DNA of 38,757 bases from Clostridia bacterium. GTDB lineage: Bacteria; Bacillota; Clostridia; UBA1381. The translations under genes and the position numbers were made by a program. Each line of letters opens with the position of its first letter. The first letter of the stretch is position 1. The stretch lies in NCBI GenBank assembly GCA_022768695.1, contig JALEPO010000164.1, positions 1 through 38,757 on the forward strand. Reading direction: 5' to 3'. Shown here one piece after another: positions 12,265-17,169 of the stretch. The notes below the pieces were generated by a model. That model did no database searches. It worked only from the letters and a program-made list of their open reading frames with translations, and had not been told where the DNA came from.

Positions 12265-12460
12265 AAGTAAGCGGCTAAAATTCTAAAAGAACATATCAAG
12301 TGATGGTATGATTTGTGGCACAGAGCTAAGTATTGAACATTTGTAAGACCTTGAAGTGATGCATATAACATTGGGGTTGGCTTGCTTTACGGCGGGAACG
12401 CAATCTGCCGCTGAAATACGGGGGCATTGCGTCCTATTGAAAATAATATCAGGAGATATT
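12265..12460 (+). ncRNA. Candidate structured leader RNA / ncRNA upstream of GH35 gene (pseudoknot-capable)
   Basis: about 200 nt from predicted start to ATG; CGGCGG(12390-12395)/CUGCCG(12405-12410) stem, loop ACGCAAU(12398-12404) complementary to AUUGCGU(12426-12432); AAUAUC-agga-GAUAUU hairpin placing the RBS core in its loop (12445-12460). Confidence 0.5.
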
Positions 12461-12465
12461 TGATT

Positions 12466-14544
12466 ATGGATTATGTATTTAACGAAATTGAAAAATATGA
12501 AATTATATCGGGACATCTGAATTTGGGCGGCAAAAATCCGGCTGATGAGGAAATTACGCTAAACAGCAAATATCTTATAAGAAACGGTAAGCCGTGGATG
12601 CCTGTAATGGCTGAATTCCATTTTTCACGAGTTAATCGTGATGATTGGCGGCGGGAGCTTTTAAAAATGAAGGCAGGCGGTATAACTGTTGTTTCTACAT
12701 ACCTGTTTTGGATATATCATGAAGAAATCGAGGGTGAATTTGATTTTTTCGGCAATCAGGATATTCGTGCCTTTCTTGAGATATGCCGCGAAACAGGTCT
12801 TGAAGCGGTTATACGGATAGGGCCGTGGGCGCATGGAGAATGCCGTAACGGTGGTTTTCCCGACTGGCTTCTGAAAAAGGGAATTGTACTTCGTGAAAAT
12901 AATGAAGAATATATGAAATATGTTCGCATTTGGTATGCGAAAATTGCCGAGCAGGTTAAAGGATTGTTTTATAAGGATGGAGGCCCGATTATAGCTGTTC
13001 AGCTTGAAAATGAGCTTGTAGATGGCGCGGAGCATCTGGCAGAGCTGAAAAAGCTTGCGATTGAGCTTGGTATGGTTGCACCGCTGTACACAGTAACCGG
13101 CTGGAACAGCTCAAGAGGGGCAAAAATTCCTGTGGATGAGGTGCTGCCGGTATTTGGCGGTTACAGTGAAGCGCCGTGGGAAGACCATACAAATCCGCTT
13201 GCACCGTCACCGCATTTCTTTTTTAATACTATGCGCAATGATTCGGCAATAGGAACCGACCTTATCGATCAGACTGTAAATGATGAATGGCAGCTGCCGT
13301 ATGAAAGGTATCCCTTTGCCACCTGTGAGTTGGGCGGCGGAATACAGGTTACGCATCATCGCCGACCGAAAATTTCACCTATGGAACCGTATGCGGTATC
13401 TATGATTAAAATTTGTGACGGCAACAATCTACCGGGATATTATATGTATCACGGCGGAACAAATAAGATTGGCAGACTTTCTACGCTTAATGAAAGCAAA
13501 GATACGGGCTATCCTAATGATTATCCTATTTTGTCATATGATTTTCAGGCGCCGATAGGTGAATACGGAATTGTCAGACGTCAGCACGGATTGTTGAATA
13601 TGCTTCATTTGTTTGTTCATGATTTTGGCAGTATTATTGCGCCTATGAATACCGCGCTGGGTGACTGCGTTGACAGGTTTGATACTGAACATTTAAGATA
13701 CGCTATGCGGACGGACGGGGAGAGCGGATTTGTGTTTGTAAACCATTTTCAGCGAATTACAAAGCTCTCGGATGTGTCAGATGTAAGGTTTAAGGTTGAT
13801 GATAAGCTGACCTTCCCGGAAAAGGGGATTACGGTTTCGGGAGAAATCTGTTTCTTTATGCCGTTTAGAATGGCGCTTGGCAATGAGGTGCTTGAATATG
13901 CGGCAGCACAGCCGGTTTGTCATGACAATAATACATATTTTTTTGCTGAAATACCGGGTGTAGATGCAGAATATAAAATAGATGGTGAAATTATAACCAG
14001 CCATGATTTTGTGAAGAATAATGTAAGAATTATAACACTTCCGTTTGAACAGGCGGAAAAGCTGCGCAGACTTGACGGTGAATTGTATATAGGAAACGGC
14101 TGTAATCTGTATATAGAGGACGGCAAAATCAAATCAGTAGAGCCGGGAAGCTATTCGTATAAGAAATGGAACGGCACATCTTTTGATGAATATTCACACG
14201 AGGTTGAATTTAAAGAACCTGAGGTTGAATTTATAAAGGTTGAAAAGCCGGATTTTGAACCTGAATATCTTTACGAATTGAATATTTGCGGTGAACGCAG
14301 GCTTGAATGGTACAAGCTGAAGGCAAAGGGCAGCGAAGGATTTCTTAAGCTTTCCTATATCGGTGATGCCGCGCAGCTTTATGCTGACGGTAAGCTTGTT
14401 GCAGATGATTATTTTTACGGCGATGACTGGATAGTTCCCGCAAAGCTGCTTGACGGAAAGGAAGTTTATTTCGGATATTCACAGCTTCGTGATGACTGCT
14501 ATCTTGAATGTGATATAGAAAAAAAGATTGGAACGATTAAATGA
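12466..14544 (+). CDS. Intracellular glycoside hydrolase family 35 (beta-galactosidase-like); ATG at 12466 preferred
   Basis: GKPWMPVMAEFHFSRVNRDDWRRELLKMKAGGITVVSTYLFWIYHE, IRIGPWAHGECRNGGFPDWL, GGPIIAVQLENEL; no signal peptide. Confidence 0.9.
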   Translation: MDYVFNEIEKYEIISGHLNLGGKNPADEEITLNSKYLIRNGKPWMPVMAEFHFSRVNRDDWRRELLKMKAGGITVVSTYLFWIYHEEIEGEFDFFGNQDIRAFLEICRETGLEAVIRIGPWAHGECRNGGFPDWLLKKGIVLRENNEEYMKYVRIWYAKIAEQVKGLFYKDGGPIIAVQLENELVDGAEHLAELKKLAIELGMVAPLYTVTGWNSSRGAKIPVDEVLPVFGGYSEAPWEDHTNPLAPSPHFFFNTMRNDSAIGTDLIDQTVNDEWQLPYERYPFATCELGGGIQVTHHRRPKISPMEPYAVSMIKICDGNNLPGYYMYHGGTNKIGRLSTLNESKDTGYPNDYPILSYDFQAPIGEYGIVRRQHGLLNMLHLFVHDFGSIIAPMNTALGDCVDRFDTEHLRYAMRTDGESGFVFVNHFQRITKLSDVSDVRFKVDDKLTFPEKGITVSGEICFFMPFRMALGNEVLEYAAAQPVCHDNNTYFFAEIPGVDAEYKIDGEIITSHDFVKNNVRIITLPFEQAEKLRRLDGELYIGNGCNLYIEDGKIKSVEPGSYSYKKWNGTSFDEYSHEVEFKEPEVEFIKVEKPDFEPEYLYELNICGERRLEWYKLKAKGSEGFLKLSYIGDAAQLYADGKLVADDYFYGDDWIVPAKLLDGKEVYFGYSQLRDDCYLECDIEKKIGTIK

Positions 14545-17096
14545 GAAGATTAGTAATTGGAATACTTGCACACGTTGACTCCGGTAAAACCACTCTCTCT
14601 GAGGGAATGCTTTATCGTGCCGGAGAAATACGAAAGCTTGGAAGAGTTGATCACGGAAACGCCTTTTTGGACAATAATCAGATTGAGCGTGACAGGGGTA
14701 TTACTATTTTTTCAAAGCAGGCGGTGCTGCCGCTGAATGGCACAGAGATTACCTTGCTTGACACTCCGGGACATATTGATTTTTCAACTGAAATGGAGCG
14801 CACTCTACAGGTGCTTGACTATGCAATTTTAGTTATAAGCGGTACTGACGGGGTGCAGAATCATACGGAAACACTGTGGAGATTGCTTATAAGATATAAT
14901 ATACCTACGTTTATATTTATTAATAAAATGGATATTTCCGAATATGAAAAAGATGAGATCATAATGGAGCTTAGGGAAAGACTTGATGACGGGTGTATAA
15001 ATTTTGACGATATTTCCTCTGAAATCTTCAGAGAATCGCTTGCTATGTGCGATGAAGAGCTGATGAATATTTTTGTTGACGGTGAAGATTTTAGCAATGG
15101 TAATATCGGCAAAGCTGTGGCAGAAAGAAAAATCTTTCCGTGTTATTTCGGATCTGCGCTTAAGCTTGAGGGAGTAGATGAATTTCTGGAGGCTTTGGAA
15201 AAATACACCGTTGATATAAAGTATGGTGATGAGTTTGGCGCAAAGATATTTAAAATATCTGAGGATGAGCAGGGTAAGCGTCTTACTCATATGAAGATTA
15301 CAGGTGGAAGTCTGAAAATAAAGACGCTGCTTACAGACAGTAAGGGTGAAGATTGGGCGGAAAAGGTAAATCAGATACGCATATATTCTGGAGTAAAGTA
15401 TAACTCGGTAAATGAGGCGTTTCCGGGAACTGTTTGCGCCGTTACCGGACTTACCCGTACATATCCGGGCGAAGGTATTGGCGCGGAGGCTGATTCGCAG
15501 CTTCCTGTCCTTGAACCGGTGCTTACTTATCGTGTTGAGCTGCCTCAGGGGATAGATGTGCATGAAGCATTGGTACGTTTAAGACGCTTAGAGCAGGAGG
15601 ATCCCGAGCTTCATATATTATGGAATGAACAGCTTCAAGAAATCCATATGCAGCTAATGGGTGAGGTGCAGCTTGATATTTTGAAACGTATAATTTCAGA
15701 ACGCTTTGATATGGATATTGAGTTCAGCCGCGGCAGTATTGCATATAAGGAAACCATTGCAGAGCCGGTTGAAGGAGTGGGACATTACGAGCCGCTCCGG
15801 CATTATGCTGAGGTTCATCTGTTGCTTGAACCGGGTGAAAGGGGCAGCGGATTGCAGTTTGCTGTAAAATGCAGCGAAGATGTTCTTGATCGTAACTGGC
15901 AGCGGCTTATTTTGACTCATCTTGAGGAGAAAAAACATATAGGTGTTCTGACCGGCTCGCCGATTACAGACATGAAAATAACTTTGATAGCCGGCAGAGC
16001 GCATCAAAAGCATACCGAGGGCGGTGATTTCAGACAGGCGACCTATCGCGCTGTGCGGCATGGACTAAAATCGACGGAAAGTATTTTGCTTGAACCGTGG
16101 TATGATTTTAGGCTGGAGGTTCCTACTGAATCGATAGGACGTGCAATTACTGATATTCAGCAGATGGGAGGAAGCTTTTCACAGCCGGAAAATCGAGGAG
16201 ATATGTCGGTTATAAAAGGAAGCGCACCTGTTGCAAAAATGCGTGATTATCAGGTTACGGAATATACCCGAGGACGAGGACGACTTTCGTGCGTGGTAAA
16301 GGGCTATGAGCCTTGTCATAATGCTGACGAGGTTATTGAAGCAATTGGATATGACAGTGACAGTGATACCGAAAATACAGCGGATTCTGTTTTCTGCTCG
16401 CATGGTGCGGGATATACTGTGAAGTGGGATAAGGTTACGGAGCATATGCATCTTGAAAGCGCATGGCAGCCGGAAACGGAAGAGGATGAAGAACCTAAAA
16501 TTATTGCCCGGCAGGTGAAGGAATATCTGGACAGCATTGCCGAGGATAAAGAATTGGTGAGAATTTTTGAAAATACCTACGGAAAAATAGACCGTAAACC
16601 GCATACGGCACTGGAAACTAAAAAGTCGGCACCGAAGAAATATCCCAAGGCAAAACCGCTCCCGCAGGGGCCTGAGTATCTGCTTGTGGACGGATATAAT
16701 ATTATATTTGCATGGGACGAGCTTAAGACTATTGCTGATAGGGATCTTGAAGCGGCGCGCGGCAGACTTATCGATATACTTTGTAATTATCGGGGCTTTA
16801 GGAATTGTGAGCTGATTCTTGTATTTGACGCATACAAAGTAAAAGGAAATGTGCGTGAGGTTGAAAATATCCATAATATAAGTGTTGTTTATACAAAGGA
16901 AGCAGAAACCGCTGATATGTATATAGAAAAGGTAACGCGTGAGCTGGGTAAGAAGCACCGTGTAAGAGTAGCGACCTCGGACAGCCTTGAGCAGATTATA
17001 ATTCTTGGCAGCGGAGCATACAGAATGTCCGCATCTGAATTATATGCGGATATAAAACGTGTTGAAAAAGAAATAAAGGAATATATGAAATCATAG
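14541..17096 (+). CDS. Tet(M)/EF-G-like ribosomal GTPase fused to C-terminal YacP/Rae1-like NYN (PIN-like) nuclease domain
   Basis: GILAHVDSGKTTLSEGMLYRAGEI, LLDTPGHIDFSTEMERTL, FINKMD; C-term EYLLVDGYNIIFAWDELKTIADRDLEAARGRLIDILCNY..LVFDAYKVKGN..VYTKEAETADMYIEKVT..RVATSDSLEQIIILGSGAYRMSASEL. Confidence 0.93.
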   Translation: MRRLVIGILAHVDSGKTTLSEGMLYRAGEIRKLGRVDHGNAFLDNNQIERDRGITIFSKQAVLPLNGTEITLLDTPGHIDFSTEMERTLQVLDYAILVISGTDGVQNHTETLWRLLIRYNIPTFIFINKMDISEYEKDEIIMELRERLDDGCINFDDISSEIFRESLAMCDEELMNIFVDGEDFSNGNIGKAVAERKIFPCYFGSALKLEGVDEFLEALEKYTVDIKYGDEFGAKIFKISEDEQGKRLTHMKITGGSLKIKTLLTDSKGEDWAEKVNQIRIYSGVKYNSVNEAFPGTVCAVTGLTRTYPGEGIGAEADSQLPVLEPVLTYRVELPQGIDVHEALVRLRRLEQEDPELHILWNEQLQEIHMQLMGEVQLDILKRIISERFDMDIEFSRGSIAYKETIAEPVEGVGHYEPLRHYAEVHLLLEPGERGSGLQFAVKCSEDVLDRNWQRLILTHLEEKKHIGVLTGSPITDMKITLIAGRAHQKHTEGGDFRQATYRAVRHGLKSTESILLEPWYDFRLEVPTESIGRAITDIQQMGGSFSQPENRGDMSVIKGSAPVAKMRDYQVTEYTRGRGRLSCVVKGYEPCHNADEVIEAIGYDSDSDTENTADSVFCSHGAGYTVKWDKVTEHMHLESAWQPETEEDEEPKIIARQVKEYLDSIAEDKELVRIFENTYGKIDRKPHTALETKKSAPKKYPKAKPLPQGPEYLLVDGYNIIFAWDELKTIADRDLEAARGRLIDILCNYRGFRNCELILVFDAYKVKGNVREVENIHNISVVYTKEAETADMYIEKVTRELGKKHRVRVATSDSLEQIIILGSGAYRMSASELYADIKRVEKEIKEYMKS

Positions 17097-17131: not shown

Positions 17132-17167
17132 AAAAATGGTTGGTTCATTGTTGAACCAACCATTTTT
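17132..17167. terminator. Bidirectional intrinsic terminator
   Basis: aaaaatggttggttca ttg ttgaaccaaccatttttt between convergent genes. Confidence 0.93.
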
Positions 17168-17169
17168 TA

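Follow-up and report, generated by a model that had tools for sequence, protein, structure and literature searches.

An EF-G/Tet-type GTPase fused to a Rae1-like NYN domain appears to take the place of free Rae1 in many Clostridia

The fusion gene and its surroundings

The window (the complete stretch of 38,757 nucleotides analysed here, contig JALEPO010000164.1 of a Clostridia bacterium) contains an open reading frame encoding an 851-aa protein, in which an EF-G/Tet-type GTPase is followed by a linker and a Rae1/YacP-type NYN domain. The coordinates of this gene and the G-domain motifs AHVDSGKTTL (residues 10-19), DTPGHIDF (74-81) and NKMD (128-131), from which the original prediction started, were confirmed. 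The features of the gene are as follows:

14541..17096, + strand, whole fusion gene (851 aa, ATG start; EF-G/Tet-type GTPase, linker and Rae1/YacP NYN domain)
14550..15209, + strand, G domain, residues 4-223 (Pfam GTP_EFTU, E 9.8e-51)
15237..15458, + strand, EF-G domain II, residues 233-306 (Pfam EF-G_D2)
15513..15728, + strand, EF-G domain III, residues 325-396 (Pfam EFG_III)
15732..16073, + strand, domain IV, residues 398-511 (Pfam EFG_IV)
15774..15818, + strand, domain IV tip loop I, GVGHYEPLRHYAEVH, residues 412-426 (near-invariant; differs from Tet and EF-G)
15993..16034, + strand, domain IV tip loop III, GRAHQKHTEGGDFR, residues 485-498 (stands where Tet has YYSPVSTPADFR)
16086..16322, + strand, EF-G domain V, residues 516-594 (Pfam EFG_C)
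16329..16460, + strand, folded tail after domain V, residues 597-640, with ADSVFCSHGAGYTVKWDKVTEHMH (from the alignment; model pLDDT about 86-93 over residues 591-640)
16461..16673, + strand, variable linker, residues 641-711 (from the alignment; low model confidence)
16680..17087, + strand, NYN_YacP (Rae1-like) nuclease domain, residues 714-849 (Pfam, E=3.9e-51; without the C-terminal EKWRR-type tail of Rae1)
16689..16691, + strand, active-site acid D717 (Rae1 D7; alignment)
16827..16829, + strand, active-site acid D763 (Rae1 D53; alignment)
16914..16916, + strand, active-site acid D792 (Rae1 D81; alignment)
16980..16982, + strand, active-site acid D814 (Rae1 D104; alignment)
17137..17168, + strand, intrinsic-terminator-like hairpin 3' of the fusion gene, TGGTTGGTTCA TTGT TGAACCAACCA TTTTTT (read directly from the sequence)

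The GTPase half has what is expected of a translational GTPase, i.e., the G1 motif (P-loop AHVDSGKTT), the G3 motif DTPGHID with a catalytic-type histidine in switch II (His78), the G4 motif and domains II-V. In an alignment of 36 fusions, 46 residues of the G domain are invariant and none in linker residues 661-711. The model of the whole protein (pLDDT 82.2, pTM 0.64) found EF-G structures as its first matches in a fold search, and its confidence is low from about residue 646 to 706 (pLDDT mostly <50). A short motif like (D)ELxxIFExTYG recurs in the linkers of many fusions (about residues 669-685 in the window protein). We extracted 33 full-length collinear orthologues with 42-71% identity to the window fusion, and a gene from the same genus, of which the contig holds 553 residues, is 82% identical over this part. 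These orthologues rule out that the two halves were joined by an assembly or frameshift artefact, a concern raised with the original prediction. The fusion gene is real and intact, and chance, chimaera and frameshift are excluded.

The gene upstream encodes a GH35 beta-galactosidase (12427-14544), and its stop codon overlaps the start codon of the fusion at 14541 (ATGA), which suggests translational coupling in the window genome. We looked for a conserved operon or conserved neighbours among relatives and found none; the neighbours differ at almost every locus, and the overlap with the GH35 gene is therefore probably incidental. Conserved antitoxin or defence genes next to the fusion loci were not found either, and a search for anti-phage systems (PADLOC) gave no hit. 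Full fusions are also present on two unverified faecal "Bacteriophage sp." scaffolds. Ten proteins around the fusion on one of these scaffolds included no virion-structure families; they have endolysin-type and regulator domains that are also bacterial. The reading as a phage gene was rejected on these ten neighbours, and the DNA is probably bacterial. Nearly all genomes carrying the fusion possess one copy of it; note that an incomplete genome (G168, 61%) has two different fusion genes (L052 and L079).

The GTPase half forms a subfamily of its own

The designation "Tet(M)-like", under which the protein was originally predicted, holds for its overall similarity (about 28% identity to Tet(M/O/Q)) but not for its profile score, its place in the tree or its domain IV loops. 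With the curated tet_protect profile (NF012153) the window protein reaches 396 bits, compared to a cut-off of 775, to 880 bits for Tet(M) as a control and to 309-450 bits for other members of the fusion family. Its score with the EF-G equivalog profile TIGR00484 is likewise far below the cut-off (294.5 vs 659 bits). In a tree of 81 GTPases (quick search, SH-aLRT support only), fused and unfused members of the family form one clade (SH-aLRT 100) on a stem of 1.1 changes per site; Tet proteins are its sister group, and the EF-G clade is separate.

The most conserved domain of the family is domain IV (mean identity 0.78; 0.51-0.59 for the other GTPase domains and NYN). At its tip, the family consensus is GVGH[YF]EPL[RK]HYAEVH for loop I and G[RK]AHxKHT[ES]GGDFR for loop III, where Tet(M/O/W/Q) have IHIEVPPNPFWA (variant in Tet(Q)) and YYSPVSTPADFR, respectively. 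The YSPVSTPADFR of Tet loop III is thus absent from the window protein, which has GRAHQKHTEGGDFR there. The histidine of this loop (H488) corresponds in a gap-free alignment to H573 of Thermus thermophilus EF-G; Tet proteins have tyrosine at that position. In Tet proteins, it is these domain IV loops that dislodge tetracycline (Atkinson 2015, PMC4342817). Furthermore, both fused and unfused members have the folded tail after domain V, which Tet(M/O/W/Q) lack. A Tet ribosomal-protection protein was ruled out by the score, the separate clade and the domain IV loops. The absence of the sequence features that define Tet proteins supports the original view that this is not a tetracycline-resistance gene. 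An EF-G-like paralogue encoded in the same genome (L098, G000:C63) has the motifs GHGKCGKTT and DTPGFFDF without the switch-II histidine and is probably an EFG-II type protein.

Tet proteins with a YacP-like NYN RNase domain were described for ten Clostridiales (Atkinson 2015, BMC Genomics 16:78, PMC4342817), where RNase-based resistance or rRNA cleavage was suggested and no functional test was made. Functional work on the fusion was not found in the literature searched, although earlier remarks in the primary Rae1 and the Tet(M)/Tet(O) structure literature are possible. Databases list the Monoglobus orthologue as a "translation factor GTPase family protein", as had been anticipated for such fusions. 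The Agathobacter rectalis fusion (L092 3649-6450, WP_306784676.1) carries the annotation TetM/TetW/TetO/TetS resistance protein and scores 389 against the tet_protect cut-off of 775. Such a label on the orthologue of a common gut commensal could inflate resistance-gene counts. The architecture is thus published; the replacement of Rae1, the assignment outside Tet and the lost Rae1 tail appear to be new.

The NYN half is closest to Rae1

The predicted C-terminal NYN domain was borne out by the NYN_YacP profile of Pfam, which matched residues 714-849 with 173.8 bits (cut-off 24.6). A PDB sequence search with this part gave a convincing match to Bacillus subtilis Rae1 only (5mq8/5mq9, E 7e-27). 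The model of the domain (pLDDT 87.9) found the same structures at ranks 1-3 in a Foldseek search (TM 0.67-0.76), with E >= 0.015 for all other hits. The four predicted acids, D717, D763, D792 and D814, align with D7, D53, D81 and D104 of B. subtilis Rae1. None of the 52 fused and 21 stand-alone NYN domains aligned deviates at these positions, except for gaps in one fused row truncated by a contig end.

The two forms differ at the C-terminus. The motif L[ED]KxR[RKL] is present in 19 of the 21 free Rae1s and in none of 47 fusions; its equivalent in B. subtilis Rae1 is FEKWRR (residues 161-166), and the window NYN domain has no EKWRR-type basic tail (B. subtilis residues 162-166). An R166P substitution in B. 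subtilis Rae1 behaves as loss of function (PMC6613710). The protein crystallised in 5mq9 is a W164L mutant. We infer that the tail helps free Rae1 to engage the ribosome and is dispensable once a ribosome-binding GTPase is attached.

Fused and free Rae1 exclude each other

NYN_YacP was found in 161 of 245 genomes of the class Clostridia, i.e., about a third of them lack it. The lengths of the corresponding open reading frames are bimodal (about 850-930 aa for fused and 168-216 aa for free proteins, with few cut by contig ends). About 90 of the 245 genomes carry the fusion, 63 are listed with free Rae1 and none has both; if the two were independent, 23 genomes with both would be expected (hypergeometric probability 7e-16, which ignores shared ancestry). 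These counts follow the resolution of contig breaks and sub-cut-off hits: an apparent stand-alone Rae1 in G257 is really a fusion split over two contig ends, and the double NYN copies in G171, G235 and G274 are just sub-cut-off hits of 21 bits. A phylum-wide sample of 200 genomes gave the same picture (the fusion in 12, free Rae1 in about 97, and no genome with the two together). In four families (f23, f24, f28 and f29) both states are present, never in one genome, and the switch therefore happened more than once.

Free rae1 is flanked by rlmB and sigH and lies downstream of cysS and mrnC (L076, L078, L082; gene names were given by sequence and order). In the fusion genomes G235, G171, G064, G255 and G190 the order mrnC-rlmB-sigH is kept and rae1 is missing there. 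The gap in G064 contains a rae1 pseudogene (71.6% nucleotide identity over 587 nt) with multiple stop codons and frameshifts, and that in G190 a rae1 remnant of 39 codons; G097, of the same genus as G064, has an intact free rae1 at the operon position. In our view, nothing argues more strongly than this loss and decay that free Rae1 is made redundant by the fused NYN domain. That the fusion replaced free Rae1 in the fusion-bearing genomes of many Clostridia is well supported by this comparison. Comparative genomics supports a link of the NYN half to the job of Rae1 by three observations: the two forms are never found in one genome, the old rae1 locus has lost the gene or holds a decayed copy, and the acids are invariant. 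Note, however, that Rae1 is dispensable, as seen from the third of the class without NYN_YacP, and its loss in fusion genomes could therefore partly be coincidence.

Origin of the fusion and its unfused relatives

Unfused family members are about 645-730 aa long and end just past the folded tail. In the GTPase tree, the fused proteins form one group with three NYN-less sequences nested within it (Bifidobacterium, Collinsella and one viral-contig copy), which are best read as later losses of NYN. In the NYN tree, which is unrooted, most fused domains are separate from the stand-alone ones and form one block, with one stand-alone exception inside it (G275, weak support). By these topologies, the fusion arose essentially once; it is now present in more than 20 families. 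In G275 (L077, L112), the stand-alone Rae1 nested in the fused clade is accompanied by a separate unfused GTPase, and this pair is possibly a fusion that came apart. Two IMG/VR viral contigs (L206, L207) start at position 1 with the first codon of a GTPase of the Bifidobacterium type, which has no NYN domain; this would be expected if the GTPase gene marked the boundary of a prophage.

The GTPase clearly has a role of its own as well, as shown by its unfused forms in genomes that lack NYN_YacP altogether (G068, G073, G100, G115, G241). Both halves are present as separate genes in G203, G157, G180, G223, G106 and G245. Such co-occurrence was rejected as evidence, as free Rae1 in 7 of the 13 genomes with an intact unfused GTPase is near background. 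Decayed copies were also found: the fusion of G254 (L069) is interrupted by an in-frame TAG, that of G089 (L124) has a frameshift near residue 566, and G028 (L118) has a broken NYN-less GTPase. Unless sequencing errors are the cause, some lineages can thus do without the gene.

Possible function of the fusion protein

EF-G/Tet-type factors insert domain IV into the decoding centre, and no other domain of the fusion family is as well conserved. For Rae1, a review (PMC12320835) describes an attack on mRNA at the ribosomal A site. We therefore favour, as rather probable, the reading that the fusion is a GTPase-tethered Rae1, i.e., an A-site mRNA endonuclease. The comparison of genomes shows intact domains and NYN acids, a subfamily of its own, an essentially single origin and the replacement of rae1; binding to the ribosome, cleavage in the A site, dependence on GTP and the order of events are inferred. 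The EF-G-like half would dock at the factor site of a ribosome that is stalled or has a vacant A site, and its domain IV would extend to the decoding centre; this docking would stand in for the conserved C-terminal tail of free Rae1. The NYN domain, on its flexible linker of roughly 70 residues, would then cut the mRNA within the A site or close to it. Domain IV and NYN probably cannot share the A site simultaneously, and cleavage would therefore come after GTP hydrolysis or withdrawal of domain IV. The cut mRNA would enter translation-dependent decay, and the resulting non-stop ribosome would be left to tmRNA, which all six fusion genomes checked possess. The protein may also clear the A site in a GTP-driven manner and have a role in rescue, as originally proposed.

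The match of the NYN half to Rae1 in sequence and fold with its four invariant acids, the mutual exclusion with the operon losses and the pseudogene, and the distribution of the C-terminal motif together with the R166P phenotype speak for a GTPase-tethered Rae1. Against it stand the competition of domain IV and NYN for one site, the GTPases that live without NYN (unfused genomes; nested forms of Bifidobacterium and Collinsella), the decay of some fusions (G254, G089), the dispensability of Rae1, the shared ancestry that the exclusion probability ignores, and the absence from the window NYN of the tail in which a point mutation of B. subtilis Rae1 behaves as loss of function. In a more far-reaching version, the fusion would be a one-polypeptide bacterial no-go-decay factor: its unique domain IV tips would recognise ribosomes that have stalled with the A site empty, and upon GTP hydrolysis the A-site codon would be handed to the Rae1 nuclease of the same protein, which would make cleavage conditional on the sensing of a stall. 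We regard this version as possible but doubtful; the counterparts in eukaryotic no-go decay would be a GTPase and an endonuclease, which are separate factors there.

Alternatively, the fusion could be passive, with NYN doing the ordinary job of Rae1, the GTPase doing a separate EF-G/LepA-like job, and only expression or location being tied. The long and variable linker, the existence of the halves as separate genes elsewhere and the persistence of unfused GTPases without any NYN would all fit. However, the fused state has been kept in >20 families from essentially one origin, and NYN domains attached to the GTPase consistently lack the Rae1 tail, which suggests that the GTPase took over part of the function of Rae1. 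We consider a passive fusion unlikely.

Improbable, too, is a ribosome-tethered nuclease for rRNA or tRNA maturation. Such a role has been proposed for NYN domains (as cited in PMC4342817), but Rae1, the closest characterised relative, cleaves translated mRNA, and it is specifically rae1 that the fusion appears to replace. Ribosomal-protection resistance to tetracycline or another antibiotic, perhaps RNase-aided, was proposed by Atkinson 2015 (PMC4342817) and is echoed in the annotation of WP_306784676.1; although Tet proteins are the nearest named GTPases, we give this very little credence in view of the low score, the separate clade, the missing Tet loops and the lack of a shared mobile context at loci whose neighbours differ almost everywhere.

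Ribosome-dependent mRNA cutters are often growth regulators (RelE), and by analogy the GTPase might sense blocked or foreign-modified ribosomes and NYN cut mRNA for an abortive or stress-induced growth stop; this is equally far-fetched for a gene without a PADLOC hit or conserved antitoxin or defence neighbours, which is present in one copy in nearly all its genomes and appears to replace a housekeeping nuclease.

For the question of how Rae1 enters the A site and chooses its mRNAs, the fusion, if it is indeed a GTPase-tethered Rae1, could reveal the ribosomal state that recruits the nuclease, and it makes GTP-gated mRNA cleavage directly testable.

Comparison with known systems

The protein shares its architecture, within one clostridial polypeptide, with the Tet proteins carrying a YacP-NYN domain of Atkinson 2015. 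They were filed there as Tet resistance proteins, whereas our analysis puts them in a separate subfamily with distinct loops, linked to Rae1 by replacement. With B. subtilis Rae1/YacP (PDB 5mq8, 5mq9) the fusion shares the NYN fold and the four acids. Free Rae1, however, is a protein of about 170 aa with an EKWRR tail encoded between rlmB and sigH, whereas the fused form is GTPase-attached and tail-less, and the fusion genomes inspected encode it elsewhere. Tet(M), Tet(O), Tet(W) and Tet(Q) are EF-G-like five-domain GTPases as well and the nearest named sister group, but the fusion is only about 28% identical to them, reaches half of the curated score, lacks the YSPVSTPADFR loop and has the extra folded tail and the NYN domain. 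EF-G (FusA), finally, has the same five domains, and its histidine at the domain IV tip is kept in the fusion, whereas loop I and the remainder of loop III differ, the clade is separate, and a C-terminal tail and a nuclease have been added.
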